A DNA stretch of 54,773 nt from a virus: IMG/VR virus record IMGVR_UViG_3300035698_014712, positions 1-54,773 of that record; one strand, given 5' to 3'. This document shows, piece after piece, positions 1,417-8,826 of this stretch. The position numbers and the translations under genes were made by a program. The number at the start of each line of letters is the position of its first letter. Position 1 is the stretch's first letter. The notes under the pieces are model-generated. The model was not told the origin of the DNA. It saw only the letters and a program-made list of their open reading frames with translations, and ran no database searches.

Positions 1417-1876
1417 AATGGGGATGTATTGGCTTTTGACAGAGTGGTGATTTCTTAATATTCAGCGAGAGATAACTCTAAACATAGGTGAAATTCTTTA
1501 AACGGAAACAAACTAAATACGCAGGAAACTGCACAGGTAGAAGCTAACATGAGTGTTGTTCACAACATTTTAGCAGGTACAAAGAGAGTGGTGTCAGACA
1601 TCATATCTTTTGAGCCTAAGCTTCAAATGGCAGCATAGAAGTCATAGTCCAAAAAAGGTTTAGGAGGACTTTATGCACAGTATATCACAGAAACCTTGAA
1701 AGACCCGAAACACTTAATTGTGTAAGTGAAGCTGTATGATATATTTAAGTATTCTAGAAGTAACTAAACTAGATGGTGGTGGACCAACTTAACAGTTGTC
1801 CCTATTCTGGAGAAGAATTCAAACTACACATAAGCTGTATACAATATTATTAAGGAAGCATTGGAAGACGAGGGTT

Positions 1877-2648
1877 TAAAGAAATTCGGACCAGTTAAGC
1901 AGGAATGCTTAATAAAAAATATTGCTTGAATTGCTGGAACGCTAAGGGTTGAAAGACTTACCTACGCCAATCAGCAGCCAATCTCACTGGAAGAAGTGAG
2001 CAGGTTCAGAGACTAGGGAAGCTACGGCTAGCCCACAGGAAGCAACATCTAGAACAGATGATGATATAGTCCGATCCTTACAGAAATGTAAGTTATTTAT
2101 AATGATTAGCTATTATTTTACATAGATTAAGAGTTTCCTGATGGGACATCTCTCCTTTCATGTAATTCATAGCTTTGGAAGTAAACTGAATATTACCTTT
2201 AATATATCCTTCTGCAGAATCTGTTCTGTCTAAAGAAGCAGCATGTATTGGGTCTTTAATTTGTTTACTGTGAGTAGAAAGTATTAATTGAACACCAGAG
2301 TAAGGACAAATTCCTTTTTGTGCTATCCATTGAATTTGTAAGTCTTCAAGAGTAATATTATACTCTTTATCACGTTGTCTTACAACTTTCATATAGTACT
2401 TATAAGGGGTAAATTCATTTTCTCTATTGTTAGTGTTAAGTAATCTTGTGTTAATGTTGTGTTTACCAGCACAGCTTCTAGTACAGTAGCTTTTCCTCCC
2501 AATTCTTATGTTTCTATCATAATCTTTTTTAGGCTTATTAAAGATAATTTCACACCCATCACAAGTAATTTCAATTGTTTTTCTGTTATGTTTATAATTC
2601 ATAATGCAAAGATAATAAATTAAAGTGGTTATTACAAATAAAATAATG
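1877..2648 (+). mobile_element. Group I self-splicing intron in the tmRNA T-loop
   Basis: Conserved core elements are visible. Q-like CAATCAGCAGCC is at 1968-1979, the R element GTTCAGAGACTA at 2004-2015 and the S element GATATAGTCC at 2063-2072. P7 forms between GACTA and TAGTC. A hairpin CTCACT/AGTGAG lies at 1983-2000, and a P9-like hairpin CTTAC-AGAAAT-GTAAG follows S. The last exon bases GGTT (1873-1876) pair with GACC in the intron (about 1889-1892), giving the required U-G at the splice site, and the intron ends in G (2648). The intron is about 772 nt because an HNH gene fills the segment between P9 and the 3' splice site. The exact boundaries are inferred from restoring the T-arm. Confidence 0.85.
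2093..2602 (-). CDS. Intron-encoded HNH homing endonuclease
   Basis: The 169-residue product has an N-terminal Cys pair CDGC and a second pair CTRSC (about residues 14-44), a likely zinc-binding part. A C-terminal HNH-type core follows, with HAASLDRTDSAEGYIKGNIQ (about 120-140) and a trailing N-x2-K motif, the pattern of phage HNH homing nucleases. It would cut intronless tmRNA genes and promote spread of the intron. It lies wholly inside the group I intron but on the opposite strand, so it needs its own promoter and is not translated from the tmRNA precursor. Its stop (2093-2095) falls just past the P9 hairpin, so the ribozyme core is undamaged. Confidence 0.85.
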   Translation of the reverse strand: MNYKHNRKTIEITCDGCEIIFNKPKKDYDRNIRIGRKSYCTRSCAGKHNINTRLLNTNNRENEFTPYKYYMKVVRQRDKEYNITLEDLQIQWIAQKGICPYSGVQLILSTHSKQIKDPIHAASLDRTDSAEGYIKGNIQFTSKAMNYMKGEMSHQETLNLCKIIANHYK

Positions 2649-2708
2649 CGAATCCCTCCGGCTCCACTATTATTAAATATTAATTATTAACAACTAAATA
2701 CATTTTTT

Positions 2709-6882: not shown

Positions 6883-8826
6883 ATGAACTATTGTATATTA
6901 GATGTAGAAACAGACGGACTGTTAAACAAAGTAAGTAAAATACACTGTTTATCCTATAGTATTTGGAAAGGTAAAACTTTAATTTCTAGTGGCAGCATTA
7001 CAAGTTACGAAGGAATGAGAAAGTTAATCTTGTCTCAAACTATTATAATAGGACACAATATTGTACTTTATGATATTCCTGTTGTAGAAAAAGTTCTTCA
7101 CATAGAAGTTACTGCTACTTTAATTGATACTATAGGTATTTCGTATTATCACAATCCAGTGAAAAAGTTTTTACATGGATTGGGAGCCTGGGGAGAAAGG
7201 TTAGGTTTTCCAAAACCAGTTATTCACGAAGACGAGTGGAAAGGTCCTATGGAAGGAGAAACTTGGGATGATTTTAGTGCAAAGATGATTTTCAGATGTG
7301 AATCTGATGTTGAAATTAATGTAAGACTATTTCACCACCAAATGGATTATTGCATGGATATTTATAAGAATGATTTCGATGAAGTAATGAGATTGTTTGG
7401 GTATTTAACCTTTAAATTAGATTGTTTGAGAGAACAGGAAGAGGAAAAGATTAAGTTGGACACGAGGCTGGCGGAGAAATCTAAAATAGACCTTGAGTTT
7501 ATTATAGACGAGAAGATGACCGAATTGTCACAACACATGCCCAGGCAAACTGACAAAGTACAACCTAAAGTTATGCACAAGAAAGACGGAACATTGTCTG
7601 CACAAGGGCATAAATGGATGGAATTATTGGCTTTGAAAAACTTACCACCTGATGCTGTAGAAACTACAAAACCAGGAAATCCAGCATCTCATATCCAATT
7701 GAAAGATTGGTTATTAGATCTAGGATGGCAGCCGGAAACTTTTAAGATCAACGCTAAAGAAAAATACATTGCACAAATATCTCTACCTTTTGGTGGTGGT
7801 CTTTGCCCTAGTGTTATTTCGTTGTTCAAACAGTATGAGTTTCTTGAAGCTTTAGGTGGATTATACAGAGCTAGACACAGGTTTGGTTTATTCAAGTCTT
7901 TTATAGAGAATAAGGATGACAATGATTATATCGTAGCAGGTGCTCGAGGATTTACTAACACATTAAGAATGCAACATTCTAAACCTTGTGCTAATTTACC
8001 AGGTGTAGGAAACTACTATGGCAAAGAAGTAAGAGGTTGTTTGACGGTCCCCGATGACAGCTATGTTATGGTTGGAAGTGATATATCCGGTTTAGAAGAC
8101 AATTCTAAACAACATTATATTTATTTTTATGACCCTAATTACGTGACAGAAATGAGAGTCCCAGGATTTGACCCTCATATTGATATTGCCGTGTTGGCAG
8201 GACTAATAACTAGAGAAGATGAAGAATTCTATAAAAACACAGAAGCTAGGAAGGACTTGGAGGGTAATATGTTTAAATTTAATTGTGAGGAAGAAGCAAA
8301 GAGGTATAAACATATTAAGAAACAAAGAGGACAAGCAAAAGTAATTAACTTTTCAGCAACGTATGGTGCAGGCCCACCTAAAATAGCAGAAACGTTGAAT
8401 TGTCCATTGCCTTTTGCAGAAAAACTGCATGCCACATACTGGGAAAGAAATAAAGCAGTTAAGCAAACAGCAAAAGCTTGTATTGTTAAAACTGTACGTG
8501 ATCAGAAATGGCTGTACAATCCTATATCAGGGTTTTGGTATTTCTTGAAAGCAGAAAAAGATAGGTTTTCTACTCTGAATCAAGGTTCTGGATGTTATAT
8601 CTTTGATTATTGGTTGAAAAATGTTAGGAAAAACTTAAAAACTTTAGGTATAAAGGTATGTTTACAGTATCATGATGAATTATTATTAACCTGTAAAAAA
8701 CCTTACTTAGATAGAGTAGAAAGAATTCTTAAACATTCTATGGAAGAGCTAAATGAAACTTTAGGGTTGAATGTTAGCATAGGAATAGACACACAAAAAG
8801 GTAATAGCTATGCTGATTGCCATTAA
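6883..8826 (+). CDS. Family A DNA polymerase with 3'-5' exonuclease (T7-like)
   Basis: This 647-residue replicative polymerase has Exo I ILDVETDG (D7, E9), Exo II IIGHNIVLYD (about residue 55) and Exo III with CESDVEINVRLF (about 138-149). Palm motif A starts at D400 (GSDISGLED), motif B at R482 (RGQAKVINFSATYGAG) and motif C is H597-D598-E599 (QYHDELLL). The motif A DxSGLE start matches T7 polymerase, but the residues after it are DNSKQ rather than LRxxA. The catalytic Asp residues and the conserved Glu remain, so activity is expected. It lacks a 5' nuclease domain, as do phage enzymes. It would copy the phage genome with the DnaB-like ATPase and primase downstream. Confidence 0.95.
   Translation: MNYCILDVETDGLLNKVSKIHCLSYSIWKGKTLISSGSITSYEGMRKLILSQTIIIGHNIVLYDIPVVEKVLHIEVTATLIDTIGISYYHNPVKKFLHGLGAWGERLGFPKPVIHEDEWKGPMEGETWDDFSAKMIFRCESDVEINVRLFHHQMDYCMDIYKNDFDEVMRLFGYLTFKLDCLREQEEEKIKLDTRLAEKSKIDLEFIIDEKMTELSQHMPRQTDKVQPKVMHKKDGTLSAQGHKWMELLALKNLPPDAVETTKPGNPASHIQLKDWLLDLGWQPETFKINAKEKYIAQISLPFGGGLCPSVISLFKQYEFLEALGGLYRARHRFGLFKSFIENKDDNDYIVAGARGFTNTLRMQHSKPCANLPGVGNYYGKEVRGCLTVPDDSYVMVGSDISGLEDNSKQHYIYFYDPNYVTEMRVPGFDPHIDIAVLAGLITREDEEFYKNTEARKDLEGNMFKFNCEEEAKRYKHIKKQRGQAKVINFSATYGAGPPKIAETLNCPLPFAEKLHATYWERNKAVKQTAKACIVKTVRDQKWLYNPISGFWYFLKAEKDRFSTLNQGSGCYIFDYWLKNVRKNLKTLGIKVCLQYHDELLLTCKKPYLDRVERILKHSMEELNETLGLNVSIGIDTQKGNSYADCH

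Follow-up and report, generated by a model that had tools for sequence, protein, structure and literature searches.

Does this phage locus encode a tmRNA that has to be assembled across an intron, and what maintains such an arrangement? The window analysed here is the whole of virus record IMGVR_UViG_3300035698_014712 (54,773 bases). It encodes rIIA/rIIB-like, GroEL-like, ribonucleotide reductase, primase and helicase-like proteins, as well as a virion protein of 4367 residues. Among named phages, one helicase places it closest to FpV4-like Flavobacterium phages (55% identity) and then to crAss-like phages (22–27%), and the host is likely a member of the Bacteroidota; the DNA polymerase, used as a query, recovered no relatives among viral contigs.

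An earlier note, made from the sequence alone, had proposed that a group I intron interrupts the T-loop of a phage tmRNA gene at positions 1420–2666. Our sequence comparisons confirmed this reading: the gene (1247 nt in total) is broken after the UU of the T-loop, at subsite 3 as we read the numbering in the figure legend of PMC11915505, by a predicted intron of 772 nt (Table 1). A nhmmer profile built from 14 uninterrupted phage tmRNAs, with the window left out, matched the raw window at 1420–1876 (177 bits) with a weak second piece at 2649–2669 (E 0.11), whereas deletion of 1877–2648 yielded one continuous match of 210 bits. Cellulophaga phage Calle_1 (MT732432) has an annotated tmRNA homologous to exon 1, which also matches an unannotated tmRNA of phage phi14:2 (KC821624) found by ARAGORN; Rfam scored these two tmRNAs at 86.6 and 46.0 bits, respectively. 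Both share the homologous exon 1 and the tag frame with the window, but neither has an intron and their tags are shorter (30 and 38 versus 44 aa).

Table 1. Positions of the tmRNA, intron and endonuclease features in the window
Feature	Position	Strand	Description and support
tmRNA exon 1	1420–1876	+	nhmmer E 8.5e-54 against 14 uninterrupted phage tmRNAs; blastn to Calle_1 tmRNA E 2e-11
Acceptor, 5' strand	1420–1426	+	GGGGATG
D-loop	between acceptor 5' strand and P2 5' strand	+	
P2 strands	5' about 1445–1459; 3' about 1849–1864	+	helix forms in two-strand fold
Tag frame	1504–1638	+	resume codon GGA at 1504; 44 aa, GNKLNTQETAQVEANMSVVHNILAGTKRVVSDIISFEPKLQMAA; stop TAG at 1636–1638
T-stem, 5' strand	1870–1874	+	GAGGG
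T-loop, first part	1875–1876	+	UU
Group I intron (predicted)	1877–2648	+	772 nt; after T-loop nucleotide 2 (subsite 3); terminal G at 2648
HNH/endonuclease VII-like gene	2093–2602	-	169 aa; PHROG 3322 endonuclease E 1.4e-20; endonuclease VII E 1.3e-12
Possible Bacteroidota-type promoter for the endonuclease gene	2607–2638	-	TTTG-N20-TATCTTTG, pattern match
tmRNA exon 2	2649–2666	+	single profile match when joined to exon 1, E 6.6e-64
T-loop, remainder	2649–2653	+	CGAAU
T-stem, 3' strand	2654–2658	+	CCCTC
Acceptor, 3' strand	2659–2665	+	CGGCTCC
A73	2666	+	

The intron core was recognised by the Rfam group I model RF00028 at 1868–2093 (82.8 bits, cut-off 50; E 1.3e-19), as the earlier note had anticipated for this search. 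P1 pairs 1873–1876 with 1889–1892 (four pairs, exon GGUU with guide GACC, U-G at the splice site), and P10 pairs the CGAAU of exon 2 with the five bases preceding the guide (2649–2653 with 1884–1888, 5/5 pairs). The computed probability of P1 was 0.67 in the whole precursor and 0.07 in a local fold of 241 nt. At the same site in viral contig L074, GAGUU faces GACUC, a change on both sides by which, by eye, P1 has A-U for G-C. Splicing at these borders would give the junction GAGGGUU-CGAAUCCCUC (junction sequence GAGGGTTCGAATCCCTC). The T-stem had a pair probability of 0.0 in the precursor fold and of 0.60–0.79 in the spliced one, which agrees with the proposal that the T-arm forms only once the 772 bases are removed. 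When the 1500 downstream bases were plainly shuffled, an exon 2 passing the same test arose in 1 of 2000 shuffles; together with the profile match to relatives, this ruled out exon pairing by chance. The G3-U70 pair and the P2 helix that the note had listed are both present, and the CCA end is not encoded. Immediately upstream (1288–1419), folding was only slightly above that of shuffles (z -1.55; 13/200 shuffles as good).

The two tRNA-like halves agree in sequence, with a full T-stem and 6/7 acceptor positions pairable; the acceptor contains an A5/G68 mismatch and a U6-G67 wobble. Computed folds favoured the T-stem only partially and the acceptor poorly: in the spliced fold, four acceptor positions had a pair probability of 0.27, and the other three had 0.0, 0.05 and 0.08. 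Among two-strand folds of the halves, the best one contained P2 and neither the acceptor nor the T-arm; this fold is not decisive, because cr128_1, a crAss-like genome with a standard tmRNA split at the same site, formed the acceptor without the T-arm while L074 formed both. The Rfam tmRNA model RF00023 did not match the window, an outcome that the note had listed as counting against its reading, and ARAGORN returned nothing on the raw or the spliced window tmRNA. Both searches are a weak test for split genes, since RF00023 gave nothing at E <= 0.1 in cr128_1 either, where the acceptor is paired 7/7, and ARAGORN found 2/5 spliced intron-form tmRNAs and missed the other three.

The tag reading frame provided an additional line of evidence. 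Its resume codon lies at tmRNA position 85 (expected near 90), and the tag ends in QMAA, where small apolar residues are expected. This frame is open in all 16 tmRNAs sharing a common core, with lengths of 30–50 aa. Within the core, 407 synonymous and 468 non-synonymous codon differences were counted (120 non-independent pairs), against synonymous to non-synonymous counts of 78:726 and 68:751 in the other two frames of the same tmRNAs; synonymous changes are thus strongly enriched in the tag frame only, with the reservation that pairs are not independent. Among the 19 tmRNAs inspected, the core motif is missing in three (G017, G018 and G020). One tmRNA (G010) has GTA where the resume codon is expected, and a 105-kb phage contig (G013) bears two different tmRNA genes, at 7947–8326 and 103911–104311, with different tags.

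These features bear on whether the gene is still functional. In a decaying tmRNA, the intron and endonuclease would persist while the spliced RNA no longer works. Consistent with decay are the acceptor defects, with pair probabilities of at most 0.27, the two-strand fold lacking acceptor and T-arm, one extra D-loop base in the alignment, the failure of ARAGORN on the spliced form, and a relative's tmRNA (L073:2890-3300) whose T-arm seems, by eye, to be absent. The closest relative, L066, also fits this explanation in part: its acceptor strand GGGGCCG would pair fully with exon 2 of the window. Yet L066 is 91.5% identical over 213 nt from exon position 37, P2 forms, the spliced gene scores 210 bits, and the tag frame is conserved with many synonymous changes. 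We regard decay as unlikely. The first 36 bases of L066 showed no likeness to window exon 1 by blastn, and its contig stops short of the T-arm. Exon 2 of the window may have been brought in with the intron by co-conversion, a guess made because both P2 strands, which lie upstream of the intron, agree with each other; plain mutation would be equally simple.

The earlier note had overlooked three features: the mismatch in the acceptor, the length and conservation of the tag, and a gene antisense to the intron. This gene lies past the P9 end of the Rfam core and before the 3' splice site, and its product resembles HNH/endonuclease VII-type proteins in PHROG and had no Pfam match at 0.001 and no PDB match. 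It is preceded by a match to TTTG-N20-TATCTTTG, the Bacteroidota-type promoter consensus, which may be its promoter; this motif is not enriched in the window (7 found versus 5.1 expected). As a lone query, the protein matched nothing in viral contigs and gave a single weak match in genomes. Full-length relatives, 41–48% identical, occur in the crAss-like genomes cr56_1, cr113_1, cr6_1 and cr128_1 and in the unclassified gut phage MT835588.

To what extent is this endonuclease tied to ssrA? A four-sequence profile (A3) recovered 92 relatives in viral contigs, and the best 80 of the 92, picked solely by likeness to the endonuclease, were used. A tmRNA gene lies within about 400 nt of the endonuclease in 64 of these best 80 loci, corresponding to 40/51 clusters at 90% DNA identity. 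A strict scan alone accounted for 44/80 loci within 400 nt, compared with 0/80 shuffled copies and 0/45 control loci, in both of which a match anywhere was counted; the shuffled control applies to the strict scan alone. Rfam, run on 20 of the 44, reported RF00023 in 17 and an antisense group I intron in the other 3. For the 36 loci missed by the strict scan, RF00023 near the endonuclease added 6 (of 20) and 7 (of 16), and a looser split-T-arm scan added a further 7; in each of these Rfam also reported a group I intron antisense to the endonuclease, and one of them has the 5' half. No tmRNA was found in the remaining 16/80; in one of these (L118), a contig end cuts a locus in which a T-arm half resembling exon 2 and a group I intron on the antisense strand are present. 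Positions immediately downstream of an intact tmRNA are commoner for the endonuclease than positions within a T-loop intron, where it lies antisense in 8 of 51 clusters.

Several other features were observed at these loci. The T-loops of the 36 uninterrupted, endonuclease-adjoining tmRNAs from the strict scan comprised 23 standard, 11 non-standard and 2 unclear ones. Non-standard T-loops (ATCGTGC, AATCGATG, AGTCGGAG, TATCGTAT and GGCAGTA) occur in L133, L142 and its copies, L151–L153, L156, L081 and L072, and possibly confer resistance to cutting. In L144, a match to an HDV-type ribozyme (621–689) starts at the 3' end of the tmRNA (249–621), as if processing it, and GOLLD RNA lies beyond the endonuclease gene in L120, L123, L138 and L160.

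Mobile islands integrate at tmRNA 3' ends, and the endonuclease could lie near ssrA for that reason alone, the tmRNA not being its target. tmRNA genes are indeed described as common integration sites in PMC11915505. However, the endonuclease gene is also found in the gaps of permuted tmRNAs and, at two subsites, within introns of the T-loop, and 38/39 strict-scan loci with the endonuclease outside an intron have it about 49–135 nt (approximate values) from the tmRNA. We hold this integration-site explanation to be quite unlikely. Rather, we lean towards a dedicated parasite of tmRNA genes: an HNH family that would be free-standing downstream of ssrA, antisense in T-loop introns (two lineages, two subsites), and present in permuted crAss-like tmRNA gaps with altered T-loops, the phage tmRNAs of the window's group carrying their own long conserved tags.

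To place the intron among its relatives, we compared loci with the same insertion site. Introns of 869 and 870 nt with a homologous antisense endonuclease occur in cr128_1 and cr6_1, respectively; the tmRNA of cr6_1 is apparently permuted, and its T-arm is split. Apparently permuted tmRNAs with the endonuclease in the gap and no intron were found in cr56_1, cr113_1 and MT835588. No tmRNA is annotated at these loci in the annotated crAss-like records, and MT835588 carries no annotation. Same-site introns were also present in L074, with an antisense LAGLIDADG-like gene, and in L106 and L107, with sense LAGLIDADG-like genes and, as neighbours, a portal gene and a DNA polymerase gene of phage type; the LAGLIDADG assignments are our reading of the sequence. 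In the intron tree, the window grouped with L107 (99/91), L074 (96/87) and L106 (89/75), and this lineage adjoined an intron in the ribonucleotide reductase gene of a Pseudoalteromonas phage (85/51, weak). A second lineage united cr128_1 and cr6_1 (93/99), near short introns (90/95) of probably bacterial origin. Because it is present in both lineages, the HNH gene has probably moved between introns.

The apparently circularly permuted genes in cr56_1, MT835588, cr6_1 and cr113_1 (L081, L082, L083 and L085, respectively) have the 3' half upstream of the 5' half, acceptors paired 7/7, 8-nt T-loops and, by eye, short tag frames such as VTDYTRIAA. RF00023 and the permuted model gave nothing in them at E <= 0.1 except a 17-base piece in L085. 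The Rfam motif RAGATH-7-assoc lies directly upstream of the 3' half in cr6_1 (L083:3848-3969, minus strand), and RAGATH-20 roughly 220–240 nt upstream of the 3' halves in cr56_1 (L081:3813-3910) and cr113_1 (L085:3826-3926), both on the minus strand; these motifs may be part of the permuted tmRNA transcripts. The endonuclease frame annotated in cr56_1 (L081:2998-3579) overlaps the tmRNA 3' half in antisense orientation and is interrupted by an in-frame stop two codons short of its end.

A pattern scan gave 26 loci, 16 of which had a matching exon 2 and 12 of these 16 a 5' half too; the 5' half of L106 was found separately, and the other 10 loci were dropped as unconfirmed. Short introns make up 14 of the 16. 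Proteins were inspected in four of the 14 (L088, L095, L103 and L110): bacterial-type Pfam domains were present in L088, L103 and L110 and absent from L095, and three proteins from L095 and L103 had no PHROG match. The short-intron loci were treated as probable host fragments and were not counted as phage evidence. In five short introns (L087, L099, L103, L110 and L111), the last base would have to be A, not G, for splicing to restore a 7-nt T-loop. Across 32 phage records, many of them fragments and 3 chosen by tmRNA pattern, RF00023 detected a tmRNA in 11 at E <= 0.01 (9 above cut-off), bearing in mind that split tmRNAs escape this model. Restricted to the helicase relatives, the count was 8/29, one below cut-off, and all 8 were uninterrupted. 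Group I introns occurred in 5/32 records; in the 3 that also have a tmRNA, the intron lies elsewhere by coordinates, and a split-tmRNA scan around the introns of the 32 records found none. Counts of phage tmRNA are probably too low, because RF00023 and ARAGORN often miss split and permuted forms.

Taken together, it is likely that the locus encodes a phage tmRNA with a self-splicing T-loop intron and an HNH homing endonuclease of an ssrA-specialised family, in a phage with a likely Bacteroidota host. The ribozyme would remove the intron after T-loop nucleotide 2 and thereby rebuild the T-arm. The spliced RNA would then be charged with alanine, work with SmpB, presumably supplied by the host, and add a long phage-type tag. 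We read the endonuclease as specialised on ssrA: it would cut uninterrupted tmRNA genes near the T-arm, repair would copy the intron and the endonuclease into the cut gene (homing), and members of the same family also occur as free-standing genes just downstream of uninterrupted tmRNA genes.

Alternatively, the RNA might act as a decoy or inhibitor of host tmRNA or SmpB rather than rescuing ribosomes, the role reported for a tag-less DS6A-type RNA in PMC11915505 and PMC4131195. No SmpB was found in 20 phage records including the window, some of which may be incomplete, and the tag far exceeds the 10 aa that PMC11915505 gives as the most frequent length. A decoy would not need a conserved open tag frame, and we judge this role improbable. 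The long conserved tags raise a testable question: what does a phage gain from a tag of its own when it has no SmpB of its own? The gating of ribosome rescue suggested in the earlier note, by which controlled splicing would yield tmRNA only at a certain stage, is reasonable biochemistry and would suit a T-stem absent from the precursor fold, but it is highly improbable given that the site is occupied by two intron lineages and different endonucleases, as is typical of mobile elements, and that the 8 tmRNAs found by RF00023 in helicase relatives, a search that split ones would escape, are uninterrupted. A mobile element at a conserved target fits better than a switch, because relatives carry uninterrupted alleles, two intron lineages share one site and the endonuclease occurs in three arrangements. 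This suggests that mobile introns, and an endonuclease family seemingly tied to ssrA, have repeatedly targeted phage tmRNA genes, including those of crAss-like gut phages.

Free-standing and intron-encoded HNH homing endonucleases occur in phages, for example I-HmuI and the T4 Mob proteins. Like them, the window's putative endonuclease has a PHROG match of HNH/endonuclease VII type and adjoins its presumed target; unlike them, it is linked to ssrA, is antisense to its own intron and matched no Pfam family.

T-loop introns in tmRNA are a known kind, and less rare than the earlier note assumed: PMC11915505 describes 883 intron-form sequences at subsites 2, 3, 7 and 8, spanning 21 phyla at the main site, and its 79 phage tmRNAs make these less rare than the note had assumed. 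Among the literature matches listed, which excluded subscription journals, no other paper dealt with tmRNA introns or ssrA-tied endonucleases. The window resembles the published forms in its T-loop group I intron, with the -1 U paired with G and a terminal G, and in that survey, subsite 3 is reported only in class Bacteroidia. It differs in intron length (772 nt, versus none over 700), gene length (1247 nt, versus a longest of 1152) and an antisense HNH-like endonuclease, whereas that survey searched for and reports LAGLIDADG genes. The window gene is a phage gene, and a phage intron form could be among the 79 phage sequences of that survey. Three things seem to be new: the occurrence in a phage together with an antisense HNH gene, the length, and an endonuclease family linked to ssrA.
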